Positions 34,497-43,592 of a DNA stretch of 64,000 bases are shown here, piece by piece; the stretch's first letter is position 1; each line of letters begins with the position of its first letter. Source of the stretch: Pseudobacteriovorax antillogorgiicola. Its GTDB lineage: Bacteria; Bdellovibrionota_B; Oligoflexia; Oligoflexales; Oligoflexaceae. The stretch covers positions 248,001-312,000 of the forward strand of contig NZ_FWZT01000005.1 in assembly GCF_900177345.1 (NCBI RefSeq), read 5' to 3'. A program made the position numbers and the translations under genes. The notes under the pieces were generated by a model. That model searched no databases. It was not told where the DNA came from and worked only from the letters and a program-made list of their open reading frames with translations.

Positions 34497-37148
34497 ATGG
34501 AAAAAACCAGCATGGACGCCTTGGTTGTTGCAACCATCGAATCGATGGTTAAGAAAATACTCCCTCAACTACAGGAACGGTTGGCAGCTATTCATCAGTC
34601 TGGCGACAACTCTCCGCAACCAGACAAAGACACGATCTACCTTACCAACGAGTGCCATGAGCTACTTGATATCCTCAAAGAGTGGTGTCGCCAGCCCGGA
34701 GACGACGACTTCGACTTGGATGAGAACCTTAGTGACGACGAAGCCAAAGATCTACTAAAAGCCATGAGTGACAATGATGCTCCTGCTGGAGTGCAAACCT
34801 ATGCTGAGATCGCTGGCAACGATTCTGAAGATATTATTGATCGGGAACAGGAAGGCCCAGCCGATGAGGCCCTCAGTGATGAGGAAGCCATGGCTATGAT
34901 GGCTGCTGCCGACGCCGCGCAAGGGGAAAGCAAAAGCTTTGACCAAGGTGAAATCATCGATAGTGAAAGCGACGAACTCACCGATGACGAAGCCCAGAGA
35001 CTCTTAGCCGAAATGGAAGAGCCTCCTACTGAAAACTCGTCTAATGGTGATCTATCGGACGACGAGGCCCAGCGACTCCTAGCGGAGATGGAAAGCCCCG
35101 CAGAGACCAAGGCAAGTCAAGATCTGTCCGATGACGAAGCCCAAAGACTCCTAGCGGAAATGGAGGCTCCCGCCTCTCAAGATATGTCTGATGATGATGC
35201 CCAAAAGCTCTTAGCTCAGATGGAAGATGATAGCGAGCTATCCGCTGACGAGGAAGCGGAAGCCCTTCTTGCTAAGCTCGGAGGCCAAGACGATGATGCT
35301 CCAGAGGTTAAATCTGAAACCGCATCAGCACCAGAAGAGGCCAATGAACCAGCGGGTGAGTTCGAAGAAATTGATGAGTGGGAGCGCAATGACTTTCAAA
35401 CAGACCCCGATATGGTAAACGATTTCAACACCAACAGTGATGAGATCATGGAAAAGCTGGATGAAGTGATCATCCAATTGGAGCAAGATCCTACGAATAA
35501 AGAGATTATTGAAGAGATCTTCCGAGGTGCTCACACCCTGAAAGGGGCCGCCGGAATGTTTGGCTTTAAGGCCCTGGAGCGGGTGATGCACCGCATGGAA
35601 AACCTCTTCGACCTGGTTCGCAAAGGCAAGCTCAGCCCCACGGGTGACACCATCGATGTCGTTTTCGAAGGCTTAGACTTGATGAGAGTCTTGCTTCAAG
35701 CTGTAAAAGACGGTGAGCCTTGCGGTGTTAAAACGGGACACATCGTTCATGCCCTTGAACAGGTAGCTAAAGGAGAGAAATCTAATATCAAGCGTGGAGG
35801 TGCAAGCGCGGATAAGGAGGAAGACTCTTCCCTAGAAGCAAAAGACGGAGCAGGTGGCGGTGCAAAGCCTGGTGCAAGTAAAGATCATAAGAAAAAAGAG
35901 CAGTCCACCATCCGAGTTGATCTGGAACGTCTCGATGTGCTCGTCAACTTAGTAGGTGAGTTGGTAATCGACCGCACCCGGTTTGCTAGCATCGAAGAAG
36001 AGCTTCGAACCAATTACCCACAGGTCGAATTAGGGGGCAGCTTCTCAGAAACCGTACAGTTATTCGGCCGTCACATGAACGAGATTCAAGACATCATAAT
36101 GAAGGTGAGGATGGTTCCCATCGGTAATGCCTTCAACAAATTTACTAGGATCGTTCGCGACCTATCCCGATCACTGGACAAGAAGATCGAGCTATTTATC
36201 AGTGGTGAAACCGCGGAACTTGATAAAACCCTGGTTGAGCAGATTGGCGACCCTTTGATCCATCTGATTCGAAACTCCTGTGACCATGGTATCGAAGACC
36301 CTGAAACTCGGGAAAAATCGGGGAAATCTCCCGTTGGTAAAATATTGCTTTCAGCCCATCAAGAGGGTAACCATATCGTGATCAAGATCGAAGATGACGG
36401 CAAAGGAATCCCTCCCGATATTATTCGACGCAAAGGTATCGAAAAAGGCTTGATTAGCGAGGATGAGCAGCTAGAAAATCGCGACATATTCAACCTTATA
36501 TTCGAGCCTGGATTTTCCACCGCTGAGCAGGTAACCAACATCTCCGGCCGAGGGGTGGGAATGGATGTGGTGAAAAAGAATATTATGAAGCTCAAAGGCA
36601 TGATCGAGATTGATTCCGAAGTTGGCCGTGGCACCACAACAACCATCCGCTTGCCGTTGACCCTCGCCATAGTTCAGAGTCTTCTTGTGCGAGCCCACGA
36701 TGAGACATTCGCCATTCCACTCAGCTCTGTCATCGAATCGATTCGGATCTCGCCAGGTGAAATTCAAAGGGTCGGTGATACGGAAGTATACAAACTAAGG
36801 GATCGAGTTTTGCCATTGGTTCACCTCTCTGATGCCCTTGATCTCAGAACGAAGAAGGGTAGCTATGCCGAGCTTCTTAAGGATCGAAAGGGCCGCATTC
36901 GCTCCAAGGCCAAGCAAGATCGTCTGTTTGTCGTTGTCGTTGGCCATGCCGATCGTCCGACTGGTATCGTGGTGGATCAACTCTTGAATCAGCAAGAGAT
37001 GGTGATTAAATCTATGGGTAACCTAATGAAGAATATCCCTTGTGTCGCAGGAGGAGCTGTTCTGGGTCATGGAGAAGTGGTGTTAGTTCTCGATATTCCA
37101 GAACTCGAAGAGGCTACCAAAGGTCGCACCAGAATGAATGCGGCCTAA
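34497..37148 (+). CDS. cheA: Chemotaxis histidine kinase CheA with N-terminal repeats, no P2 domain
   Basis: The 883-residue protein starts with a helix (1-65) and an acidic region holding seven repeats of a 14-residue motif (78-261, separate entry). The Hpt domain then follows with AHTLKGAAG (His346), a Gly/Lys-rich linker without a CheY-binding P2 fold (about 425-470), the P3 dimerisation helices (RLDVLVNLVGELVIDRTR), the ATPase domain (HLIRNSCDHGIE, IEDDGKGIPPD, ISGRGVGMDVVKKN) and a CheW-like P5 domain (LPLTLAIVQSLLVRAHDETF). GAGG lies 6 bases before the ATG. Normal CheA has the Hpt domain at residue 1-130; here it begins near 305. Co-transcribed with the STAS-like gene and cheW. Confidence 0.95.
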   Translation: MEKTSMDALVVATIESMVKKILPQLQERLAAIHQSGDNSPQPDKDTIYLTNECHELLDILKEWCRQPGDDDFDLDENLSDDEAKDLLKAMSDNDAPAGVQTYAEIAGNDSEDIIDREQEGPADEALSDEEAMAMMAAADAAQGESKSFDQGEIIDSESDELTDDEAQRLLAEMEEPPTENSSNGDLSDDEAQRLLAEMESPAETKASQDLSDDEAQRLLAEMEAPASQDMSDDDAQKLLAQMEDDSELSADEEAEALLAKLGGQDDDAPEVKSETASAPEEANEPAGEFEEIDEWERNDFQTDPDMVNDFNTNSDEIMEKLDEVIIQLEQDPTNKEIIEEIFRGAHTLKGAAGMFGFKALERVMHRMENLFDLVRKGKLSPTGDTIDVVFEGLDLMRVLLQAVKDGEPCGVKTGHIVHALEQVAKGEKSNIKRGGASADKEEDSSLEAKDGAGGGAKPGASKDHKKKEQSTIRVDLERLDVLVNLVGELVIDRTRFASIEEELRTNYPQVELGGSFSETVQLFGRHMNEIQDIIMKVRMVPIGNAFNKFTRIVRDLSRSLDKKIELFISGETAELDKTLVEQIGDPLIHLIRNSCDHGIEDPETREKSGKSPVGKILLSAHQEGNHIVIKIEDDGKGIPPDIIRRKGIEKGLISEDEQLENRDIFNLIFEPGFSTAEQVTNISGRGVGMDVVKKNIMKLKGMIEIDSEVGRGTTTTIRLPLTLAIVQSLLVRAHDETFAIPLSSVIESIRISPGEIQRVGDTEVYKLRDRVLPLVHLSDALDLRTKKGSYAELLKDRKGRIRSKAKQDRLFVVVVGHADRPTGIVVDQLLNQQEMVIKSMGNLMKNIPCVAGGAVLGHGEVVLVLDIPELEEATKGRTRMNAA
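34728..35279 (+). repeat. Seven FliM-N-like repeats encoded in the cheA 5' part
   Basis: The core LSDDEAQRLLAEME appears at residues 161-174 (with T for S), 186-199 and 210-223, with looser copies at 78-90 (LSDDEAKDLLKAM), 126-136 (LSDEEAMAMMAA), 230-243 (MSDDDAQKLLAQME) and 248-261. The three best copies are also close at DNA level (GACGAAGCCCAG-AGACTC type words), so they are recent duplications. The pattern L-S-x-x-E-[AI]-x-x-L-L matches the N-terminal peptide of FliM (LSQDEIDALL), the docking site of phosphorylated CheY. Docking of CheY here is inference. Confidence 0.85.
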
Positions 37149-40419: not shown

Positions 40420-40891
40420 GCTACCTTCGATGGCTCATAAATTCAGAAAGCTAATGACTTCAGTTCCTAGAACCTCTGAATTTTAGACTTATACATACTC
40501 CTTTATCGGTAGCGAAATAGGGGACATTAGGAAAATACTAATCATTTCAACAGGCAAATACCGATAAGCCTGCCAACTTCCATGACAAGGAAGAAAGGAT
40601 ATGATTCACCTATTGAGCGATTATTCTTTACATAACAGCTTAGCATTACCAATACCTCAAAACACACTTACAAATATATAAATAGTATGTTTTGCTCTTT
40701 CGCAAAAGGAACAATACACTTCCAAAATCTTAAACCTTAAAGGCATCAACTAAATTCGATGTCTCAACCGATTTTAATTCCTGAAAAAAATGAAAGTCCT
40801 GAATTTTGAAGACTCGAAGACGAAAAGATGAGAGTTATTGCGGCAGACATTCACTAGAAGAAATTATTCACACTTTTTGGGTGAGGTCTAC
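40420..40891. other. 472-base gap upstream of the GNAT-like/E1-like pair
   Basis: No convincing coding frame is present; the frame from ATG 40838 into the GNAT-like gene lacks a ribosome site. The left part holds the minus-strand sigma-28-like site (40503-40529). The right part (40650-40860) is A/T-rich with clusters of A (AAAAAATGAAAG near 40785), where promoters of the downstream pair should lie, though I see no clear -10/-35 pair. Confidence 0.4.
40503..40529 (-). promoter_or_regulatory. Candidate sigma-28 promoter for the membrane histidine kinase
   Basis: On the minus strand TAATGTCC, 11 bases, ACCGATAA: 12 of 16 match the FliA consensus. The kinase start lies about 85 bases downstream. 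Confidence 0.45.
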
Positions 40892-41764
40892 ATGTCTGCT
40901 ACATTTAAGAAAAGCTACGGTGTTAACGATTTTTACTACTATTACAACCCTGGTCAAAAGCTTGACGATCAGGCCATGCTTGATTTGTTTACAGAGTTAA
41001 AAGAGGTCAATGATCACGCGAAATCTCCACTATCTCATGGCCTGTTACCGGACACTCGCAACGTTCCTACCATCCGAGAAATTTATGAGAGCTGCGTTGT
41101 CTGCATTATCAAAGTTGAAGGTCACCTCAGCGGATTTCTCATCACTCCCATCTTGAATAATGGTCGCCAAATGGTAGTACACTCCGGCTTGGTCATGATC
41201 AATCGAAACAAGGGTGCAAACCTCATAGCCTTGGCCTCAGCTCACACAGCAATCTTCCTTCAAAAAACTTTGAAGCGATATTTTACCACTAATATAAGCA
41301 GCACACCGTCGATCATTGAAGCCTTTTCCAAAACGGTCACCCGCCCATGGCCCTGCCCGACAGCAAAACTTGTCAAGCCATACCGTGGCTATCGGGAAGC
41401 CTGTAGGACTCTCTATGAAGACTACATGCAAAAGAGGTTTTTGAATCCTGATGATCTTATGATCGACTATAAACGTTTTGTGATTCGCTCGAAATCACAA
41501 ACCATGGGTTTCACTACAGACCTTCGCAAGATCTCCCGTTCCTCGGACTTTAAATTCATCAACTTCTGCTTCACTTGGCTCGACTATGAGAAAGAAGAAG
41601 ACATGGTTCAAGTAGGAGTGGTGAATCGTTGGACAGCCCTAAAGATTAAATGTGGGCTTGCTGCATACCGCGCCTCCCTTGCTTTCCAAACACCTGAGGT
41701 GGAGCCAACGCCAATACAGGCAGCTCCTAACCTTTCATCTGCAACGTTGAAAAAAGCTAGCTAG
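40892..41764 (+). CDS. GNAT-like protein, partner of an E1-like enzyme
   Basis: ATG 40892 with GAGG 5 bases upstream (290 residues). The central part resembles a divergent GNAT acyltransferase: CVVCIIKVEGHLSGFLITPI (strand 4), HSGLVMINRNKGANLIALAS where the acyl-CoA-binding loop would be, and ISSTPSIIEAFSKT in place of motif B. The canonical Q/RxxGxG/A is reduced to RNKGAN. The rest (YREACRTLYEDYMQKRFL, FVIRSKSQTMGFTTDL) is unclassified. The E1-like gene begins 11 bases after the stop with its own ribosome site, so the two work together. The fold call is inference. Confidence 0.55.
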   Translation: MSATFKKSYGVNDFYYYYNPGQKLDDQAMLDLFTELKEVNDHAKSPLSHGLLPDTRNVPTIREIYESCVVCIIKVEGHLSGFLITPILNNGRQMVVHSGLVMINRNKGANLIALASAHTAIFLQKTLKRYFTTNISSTPSIIEAFSKTVTRPWPCPTAKLVKPYRGYREACRTLYEDYMQKRFLNPDDLMIDYKRFVIRSKSQTMGFTTDLRKISRSSDFKFINFCFTWLDYEKEEDMVQVGVVNRWTALKIKCGLAAYRASLAFQTPEVEPTPIQAAPNLSSATLKKAS

Positions 41765-41774
41765 GAGGTGGACG

Positions 41775-42536
41775 ATGGACTTTTCAAGAAATTGGCTATT
41801 TATCGACCAAGAAACTCAGCGCAAGCTCAGCGACAAACGCTTGCTCATTGTTGGGTCAGGGATTGGTAGTTTCATCTCAGAACTCGCAGTTCGTACTGGC
41901 TTTCAGCACTTGATCATCGCGGATGGCGATGACGTCAGTCATTCAAATTTAAATCGGCAGAACTACCGACTGGAAGACGTCGGCGCCCCCAAGGTTCACA
42001 GCCTCGAAGCGCGACTGCTAGCCATCAATCCGAACCTCAATCTAACTGTCATTCCCAAGTATATGGGAGCCACTGAGCTACGAGAATTCATCCCTCAAGC
42101 AGATTACATCATCAATACGATTGACTTTGATTCGCCGGACTTTCTCCTGTGTTCACAACTTTGTCGGGAGCATCACAAGATCGAATTGTTTCCTATGAAT
42201 CTAGGGTTTGGAGCATCTCTTTGCATTTTCAGCCAGACCTGCCCCACTTGGCGAGATCTTTTCCAGTTTGAAGACCATATAGACCTAAAAGCATCGATTC
42301 TACAGTATCTGGCTGCAACCCAAAGTGTTGAGTCTTACCTCTATCAGGCTCTCGGACGTTACCAATCGGAGTACTTTCACCATGGCTGCGATCCTCAGCT
42401 AGGGATCAGCACTTATATGGTTTCTGCTATGACAGTGGCAAACTTGGTAAAACTCGTGAAGGGCGATGATATTCGCTACTTCCCTGAGTTCTACTATCTG
42501 GATCCTTACGGTAATAAGACGATTTCAGCGGCGTAG
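41775..42536 (+). CDS. E1-like (ThiF/MoeB/HesA fold) adenylating enzyme
   Basis: The 253-residue protein has the nucleotide loop LLIVGSGIGSFISELA (Gly27, 29, 31), then IIADGDDVSHSNLNRQNY (Asp50, Asp52, Arg61) and GAPKVHSLEARLLAINP with Lys73, the ATP-binding set of E1-like enzymes, and DYIINTIDF. Where MoeB and ThiF have two Cys-x2-Cys zinc pairs, only FSQTCPTW remains, so the zinc site is lost. In the family these enzymes adenylate a C-terminal Gly-Gly of a ubiquitin-like protein or another carboxylate. No such partner gene, thiazole or molybdopterin gene is nearby. AGGAGG is 6 bases before the ATG. Confidence 0.85.
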   Translation: MDFSRNWLFIDQETQRKLSDKRLLIVGSGIGSFISELAVRTGFQHLIIADGDDVSHSNLNRQNYRLEDVGAPKVHSLEARLLAINPNLNLTVIPKYMGATELREFIPQADYIINTIDFDSPDFLLCSQLCREHHKIELFPMNLGFGASLCIFSQTCPTWRDLFQFEDHIDLKASILQYLAATQSVESYLYQALGRYQSEYFHHGCDPQLGISTYMVSAMTVANLVKLVKGDDIRYFPEFYYLDPYGNKTISAA

Positions 42537-42635: not shown

Positions 42636-43592
42636 TTATTCGAAGAGCACCATGAACGCAGAGATCTGGTAGTAGGGCATGGTATGACCATTGTTGTCAT
42701 AATCATCACGCCTATGATTCGTGTAAGCTTCTGGCTGCCACTGGAAGCTAGTTTCTTGTCCTAAACCTAAGGCCGATCCAGGCAAAGTCTCCACCCATGG
42801 GTTCACCTTATCCCCAGGACACCAGCCTGCACGATCATAGATCCAAGTTCCCATCTGTGGTCCTTCGGTAACTGTATCGCGACAATTGTCTCGCCAAATC
42901 ACCCGGCTTGTGCTCCAGTTTCCAAGGCTTAGAGTATGGCGACGCTGACAAAACTCAGCACAGTTATCAGTGTTACCCTGCCCATGACCCGTAACATAAG
43001 TCCAAATCTTAGCTTTAGAAAACTCTTCTGAGAATTCAACGACTCTGCCAGCTAGAGTTTCAACCGAGGGGTTACCGTACTCAATAGACTTGGCAGAGAC
43101 TAGTGGTAGGACTGCTAGAGGCCGATCTTTGGGAACGCCTTTAGTGTATTTCAAAGTTGCATCTACAAGCCAACCATCACCTTGTGGATGGCCTGGCCCA
43201 ACCCAGGTATCGATGAAAACGCGAAAACGCTTAGGGCCTTTAAGCAAAGGTTGCAGATCAGTCACATCTAAGTTCCATCGCGCTCCAACTCGATAAGGAG
43301 TCATAAAGCGCATCAACTCAACTGTCTGCCCCTCGTCAGTTTCTACATACAATGCACCTTTGCGATCCCACCAGTCACAGCGATCATTAGGGCAATACGT
43401 GCGAACACTCAGGATGACCTGTTCATAGCTTTCGGAGCCTGATGGGAGCTTGACATCTTGAGTCACCTCTCTCTTGTTCTGGCCGTTGCCGAAATAGACG
43501 TGTTCCGCAGTGAAGATGGAAACCTCTTGGCCCTGGGCAAGAGCTGCGAACCCCCACAGCGCCAGTGCCGATAAACATGATGTTAGCTTCAT
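42636..43592 (-). CDS. Exported PNGase F-like protein
   Basis: The 318-residue product has a signal peptide (LTSCLSALALWGFAALAQG) and two beta-sandwich halves as in peptide-N-glycosidase F. Landmarks: CPNDRCDWWDRKGALYV in the first half (the family's Asp-Arg-Trp-Asp-like segment), and IWTYVTGHGQGNTDNCAEFC, VIWRDNCRD, GTWIYDRAGWCPGDKVNPWV in the second. PNGase F cuts the bond between Asn and N-glycans; activity here is untested and the glycan is unknown. Several Cys pairs fit an extracytoplasmic enzyme. Single gene on the minus strand. Confidence 0.8.
   Translation of the reverse strand: MKLTSCLSALALWGFAALAQGQEVSIFTAEHVYFGNGQNKREVTQDVKLPSGSESYEQVILSVRTYCPNDRCDWWDRKGALYVETDEGQTVELMRFMTPYRVGARWNLDVTDLQPLLKGPKRFRVFIDTWVGPGHPQGDGWLVDATLKYTKGVPKDRPLAVLPLVSAKSIEYGNPSVETLAGRVVEFSEEFSKAKIWTYVTGHGQGNTDNCAEFCQRRHTLSLGNWSTSRVIWRDNCRDTVTEGPQMGTWIYDRAGWCPGDKVNPWVETLPGSALGLGQETSFQWQPEAYTNHRRDDYDNNGHTMPYYQISAFMVLFE

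Follow-up and report, generated by a model that had tools for sequence, protein, structure and literature searches.

Gene content and domain layout of the locus

The window, the whole stretch of 64,000 nucleotides that was analysed from Pseudobacteriovorax antillogorgiicola, was found to contain a conserved three-gene unit coding for a STAS-like protein, a CheA and a CheW (Table 1). The nearest named relatives were draft genomes, one from Pseudobacteriovorax and the rest from elsewhere in the Oligoflexales, and the cheA-cheW pair adjoined flagellar genes in two relatives. All four core CheA Pfam domains were found above the cut-offs, Hpt (residues 305-403) being followed by H-kinase_dim (469-537), HATPase (585-722) and CheW (728-870). 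The phosphoacceptor histidine was found within HTLKG at residue 346, where the first-pass annotation had placed it. By all its core features the predicted protein is a CheA chemotaxis histidine kinase. The genome was found to contain four other CheA-type kinases, all without P2, and at least 150 receiver-domain matches.

The N-terminal helical hairpin (MDALxxAxxxSLxKxxLPxL...) was conserved in the Oligoflexales relatives and was retained in the repeat-less orthologs L075 and L124. The model of the STAS-like protein (pLDDT 89) had its best PDB match in 4hyl, an anti-sigma-factor antagonist (E 3e-4), and PF01740 was weakly matched by two of seven homologues. This protein contained a C-terminal cysteine cluster, CEC...CDGC, and was conserved upstream of this CheA throughout the Oligoflexales.

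Further along the window, an unknown-family protein was followed 10 bases on by a ThiF/E1-like protein (40838-42536), and the two may function together. The minus strand at 42636-43592 was found to code for a protein in which both domains of PNGase F, a peptide-N-glycosidase that removes N-glycans, are present.

Table 1. Features of the cheA locus, in positions of the window
Feature	Coordinates	Strand	Remarks
STAS-like/cheA/cheW unit		+	conserved three-gene unit; STAS-like gene first, cheW third
STAS-like protein, 166 aa	33988..34488	+	upstream of cheA; cysteine-rich C-terminal part
cheA, 883 aa	34497..37148	+	N-terminal helical hairpin, repeat array, P1 (Hpt), P3, P4, P5
cheA N-terminal helical hairpin, residues ~3-66	34503..34694	+	modelled helices 8-34 and 44-65
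CheA repeat 1, residues 78-93	34728..34775	+	LSDDEAKDLLKAMSDN; modelled helix 80-92
CheA repeat 2, residues 126-141	34872..34919	+	LSDEEAMAMMAAADAA; modelled helix 128-140
CheA repeat 3, residues 161-176	34977..35024	+	LTDDEAQRLLAEMEEP; modelled helix 163-174
CheA repeat 4, residues 186-201	35052..35099	+	LSDDEAQRLLAEMESP; modelled helix 188-199
CheA repeat 5, residues 210-225	35124..35171	+	LSDDEAQRLLAEMEAP; modelled helix 212-222
CheA repeat 6, residues 230-245	35184..35231	+	MSDDDAQKLLAQMEDD; modelled helix 232-242
CheA repeat 7, residues 249-264	35241..35288	+	SADEEAEALLAKLGGQ; modelled helix 250-261
P1 (Hpt) domain of cheA	35409..35705	+	Pfam; phosphoacceptor His346 at 35532-35534
cheA P1-P3 linker, residues ~425-468	35769..35900	+	disordered, without P2 domain
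cheA P3 dimerisation, P4 ATPase and P5 CheW-like domains	35901..37106	+	
cheW, 188 aa	37163..37729	+	third gene of conserved unit

Absence of a P2 domain

The linker before P3 had been described as lacking a P2 fold, and the searches agreed with this. CheA was found to contain no P2 or CheY-binding domain in Pfam (neither PF07194 nor PF09078), and residues 432-480, the usual place of P2, were unfolded in the structure model, with no P2 fold. As to the loss of P2 in homologues, to which the first-pass annotation had looked for support, PF07194 matched none of the 58 class genomes, and the B. subtilis and T. maritima controls were positive. In a survey of thousands of CheAs, P2 was missing in over half (PMC10782961). 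The absence of P2 is in itself ordinary, and the array is not. Since P2 loss is common among CheAs, the proposal that the repeats replace P2 is plausible rather than proven.

Anatomy of the repeat array

Seven copies of an L-S-x-x-E-A-x-x-L-L motif had been claimed for CheA residues 78-261, which correspond exactly to positions 34728-35279. Six copies were clear and fitted the pattern [LMI][ST]xx[ED][AIV]xx[LM][LM], beginning at residues 78, 126, 161, 186, 210 and 230, whereas the seventh was offset by one residue: it reads LSADEEAEALL from L248, with one residue too many, and its core begins at 249. This last copy was distinct, being of the LLxxLGG or LLxxMGG type in several relatives. The motif in the window CheA, upstream of the Hpt domain, was [LM]-S-D-D-E-A-x-x-L-L-A-E-M-[DE]. 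Copies 1, 2 and 7 were degenerate, copy 2 with MM in place of LL, and the three copies noticed earlier as almost identical were copies 3-5 (LTDDEAQRLLAEMEEP, LSDDEAQRLLAEMESP and LSDDEAQRLLAEMEAP). The 6 matches observed compare with an average of 0.003, and never more than 1, in 20,000 shuffles of CheA residues 70-300. Strict repeat DNA patterns found, in the genome, this CheA and one other match with Arg for Ser, which was taken as chance.

The AlphaFold2 model of CheA contained one short helix per repeat, seven in total, with low-confidence spacers between them. Overall confidence in this full-length model was low (pLDDT 59, 12 sequences), and only its secondary structure and its lack of a P2 fold were relied on. 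A search for solved-structure relatives of the repeat region found none. As modelled, the region is built as a short-linear-motif array.

Conservation of the array and selection on the motifs

The array profile was found at one locus per genome in 20 of the 58 class genomes surveyed, always in this CheA ortholog and nowhere else, and a phylum-wide search gave the same 58. The four other CheA-type kinases of the genome gave no match to the profile. The 72 copies from 18 orthologs gave a tight consensus, [LMI]-S-D-[DE]-E-A-x-[AR]-[LM]-L-A-E-M-D-x-P, and counting in these related CheA proteins, as had been suggested, gave 2 to 8 repeats per protein, the counts being minima for a few truncated cheA genes. 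Array-less CheA orthologs were found in class family f13 (L066-L074, L076 and L077), several of which have, in place of the array, an additional Hpt-like domain at the N-terminus together with another N-terminal region.

Copies 3-6, compared pairwise, differed at 47-98% of the synonymous sites and at only 0-17% of the non-synonymous sites. Given this synonymous divergence with little non-synonymous change, these copies are old and selectively kept, being neither recent duplicates nor the product of low-complexity drift. Between orthologs, the motif codons had pN/pS values of 0.02-0.16 in four of five pairs, similar to those of P1 and P3-P5, whereas the spacers had values of 0.32-0.55 across the five pairs; in the most distant pair the values were 0.23 for the motifs and 0.37 for the spacers. 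Strong purifying selection acts on the motifs (pN/pS 0.02-0.23), and the view of the repeats as selected, helix-forming linear motifs is supported.

Likeness of the repeats to the FliM peptide

The genome was found to contain one FliM, whose N-terminus (MSQVLSQSEVDALLSAV) carries the motif LSQSEVDALL, so that the organism's own FliM has a motif similar to that of the repeats. Alignment of the repeats with this N-terminus bore out the proposed likeness in the L-S-x-x-E-x-x-x-L-L register but not at FliM positions 11 and 12, where FliM has Ile/Val and Asp. The FliM-type core L-S-x-x-E-phi-x-x-L-L was present in six CheA copies, and a hydrophobic residue three after LL was common to the repeats and the organism's FliM. 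Of the 66 unique copies, 64 had Ala at position 11, and position 12 was mostly M, L, R, A or Q. FliM Asp12 has a salt-bridge role in a docking model of V. cholerae CheY3 with FliM (PMC3774744).

With a BLOSUM-smoothed repeat profile, the organism's FliM N-terminus ranked 54 of 155,217 as a 10-mer and 41 of 153,915 as a 13-mer, the peptides (about 155,000) being drawn from a 400-kb genome sample, the window and the chemotaxis regions. With the unsmoothed profile it ranked 194, behind other peptides of the genome sample. Taken alone, this resemblance in sequence is modest, suggestive rather than decisive. The E. coli CheZ peptide ranked 642 of about 155,000 with the repeat profile, and the repeats were rejected as a CheZ peptide on this score.

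A related N-terminal peptide was retained by FliM in every FliM-bearing genome that was read. Covariation of FliM with the array was rejected, the FliM motif being invariant whether the array was present or absent.

Constancy of the CheY alpha4 helix in array-bearing genomes

The alpha4-beta5-alpha5 face of CheY is used by FliM, CheZ and P2. FliM docks on this face, of which alpha4 forms a part (PMC3774744, PMC9126983). The flagellar CheY of the genome was found in the same flagellar cluster as FliM; it was 61% identical to E. coli CheY and retained A90, K92, Y106, V108, F111, T112, K119 and K122. Flagellar CheY and FliM were gathered across the class, and changes were placed by parsimony on the FliM tree.

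The alpha4 helix (residues 91-100) was EKENIIEAVK in all 18 array genomes in which CheY was found, and was encoded there by 18 different DNA strings. It was altered in every array-less genome of the same order whose CheY was read. On array-bearing branches alpha4 had 0 changes and the rest of CheY 152; on array-less branches within the order the counts were 19 and 128 (Fisher p 7e-7). Leaving out the two most divergent genomes did not abolish the difference (p 4e-5). Residues 91-100 were the most extreme of 109 ten-residue CheY windows, a scan that corrects only partly for the segment having first been spotted by eye. The basic residues K92 and K100 were often replaced in the array-less genomes, which would be consistent with the loss of an acidic ligand.

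A natural deletion was found in genome G012, which contained no repeats and kept the STAS-like gene, CheA P1 and P3-P5, cheW, and FliM with its motif. Its CheY alpha4 was EKQNIVDAVQ, with K100 replaced. Since G012 keeps the FliM motif while alpha4 has changed, FliM alone is not what keeps alpha4 constant. Most array-less lineages were without the whole CheA ortholog, so that only the G012 lineage separates repeat loss from kinase loss. Judged from these comparisons, the constancy of alpha4 is maintained by something that accompanies the array. The coevolution of alpha4 with the array suggests a CheY dock, for which it is the strongest evidence.

Other irregularities were found among the relatives. 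In G015 the array was present and FliG was found, whereas FliM and flagellar CheY were undetected; given the presence of FliG, a gap in this draft genome is likely. In G036 FliG was found and FliM was not, and the CheA ortholog (L124, G036:C169, 497-2053) was a protein of 518 aa that had lost both the repeats and P1; the pathway in G036 is possibly decaying. CheY evolved faster along its full length, relative to FliM, in array-less Oligoflexales (L164, L171-L174, L176, L181 and L184), including the G012 lineage.

Interpretation of the array

The array probably serves as a multivalent dock for the flagellar CheY: its short amphipathic helices, strung along a disordered tether, would bind the alpha4-beta5-alpha5 face of CheY near P1, in the manner of P2. 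The docked CheY would be kept near the P1 phosphodonor, with a presumed gain in phosphotransfer, and many weak copies would supply what P2 gives elsewhere as one folded domain. Docking may depend on phosphorylation. The earlier idea of a CheY dock is partly supported, with indirect backing from the coevolution of CheY, and a substitution of the repeats for P2 seems plausible.

The very acidic composition of the region (78 Asp+Glu in 231 residues), its disorder in the model and its variable copy number would also suit a helix-prone spacer without a specific ligand, serving only to give P1 a longer reach or to keep CheA in solution. Such a role is very improbable: constraint on the motifs is about equal to that on the catalytic domains, whereas the spacers drift, and copies 3-6 differ at many synonymous sites while their amino acids hardly change, which would be unneeded in a mere spacer. 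It is also rather unlikely that the repeats bind a partner different from CheY, for example CheB, CheW, some further response regulator, the STAS-like protein or a phosphatase, and that the alpha4 association reflects loss of the whole pathway. The CheA ortholog is missing from most array-less genomes and the receiver-domain matches are many, which would accord with such a partner, but the extra changes in CheY cluster in alpha4, and G012 retains the kinase core. As for the STAS-like protein, its gene persists in the repeat-less G012 and G036, and a dock for it was rejected as the main reading.

The repeats might instead bind mainly CheY-P, acting as a buffer or a competitor of FliM that holds active CheY at the receptor array and shapes motor bias, perhaps because the known CheZ family is unrepresented. 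PF04344 (CheZ) was found neither in this genome nor, above the cut-off, in 37 relatives, and the related peptide of FliM and the high copy number also speak for this role. It is nevertheless rather unlikely, since there is no sequence sign of a preference for phosphorylated CheY, the FliM motif is unchanged on array loss, and distant CheZ-like proteins may exist (C1), for which further searches gave no confirmation. At locus L047 (G000:C1, 832-2633), a CheY-like gene was found between two related helical proteins (36% identical) that share a D-x-x-x-Q segment (DDVMAQRLSHV / EDVIAQRLDHV) reminiscent of the active site of CheZ; neither Pfam nor NCBIfam nor the PDB gave any support.

The reading as a P2-like CheY dock can be extended. 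A P2-less CheA lineage may have evolved a beads-on-a-string set of motor-mimicking CheY-binding helices, so that a dimer could hold up to ~16 CheY on the face that FliM uses and copy number would set phosphodonor docking, CheY storage and motor competition; this extension is put forward tentatively. A linear-motif array would be one answer to how P2-less CheAs achieve fast and specific CheY recruitment, and would add a bacterial kinase to the examples of multivalent docking by short motifs. The natural copy-number variants (2-8) and the natural deletion in G012 allow dose-response tests, and the coevolving CheY helix offers a ready set of compensatory mutations.

Comparison with known systems

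The array CheA is a real, conserved and selected feature that is apparently undescribed. A literature search, which took in few subscription papers, found no account of FliM-type motifs or repeats in CheA, and the text of the CheA survey nowhere mentions motif, repeat or FliM (PMC10782961). That survey describes duplicated P2 domains in Borreliales and C-terminal additions of receiver domains (PMC10782961). These auxiliary-domain CheAs resemble the array CheA in having the CheA core with altered CheY-handling parts, but they contain added domains (PMC10782961), whereas the array CheA contains an added array of linear motifs.

The array would resemble the P2 domains (PF07194, PF09078) in using the alpha4-beta5-alpha5 face of CheY to bring that protein to CheA close to P1. 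It differs in consisting of short helices ahead of P1, whereas P2 folds as a domain that sits between P1 and P3. The FliM / FliY peptide (LSQxEIDALL) and the repeats share their register and the character of a short acidic amphipathic helix; the peptide is found at the protein N-terminus, whereas the repeats are found in multiple copies inside a kinase, lack the FliM Asp12 and contain an additional conserved A-E-M-[DE]-x-P tail. The C-terminal helix of CheZ (LLxxLGF) recalls the last repeat (LLAKLGG; LLxxLGG / LLxxMGG in several relatives), but the CheZ peptide lies at the C-terminus of the CheZ phosphatase and ends in Phe, whereas the repeats are internal in CheA and have no terminal Phe. The array is neither a member of the P2 family nor a full match to the FliM peptide, and we infer that it works in a P2- or FliM-like way.
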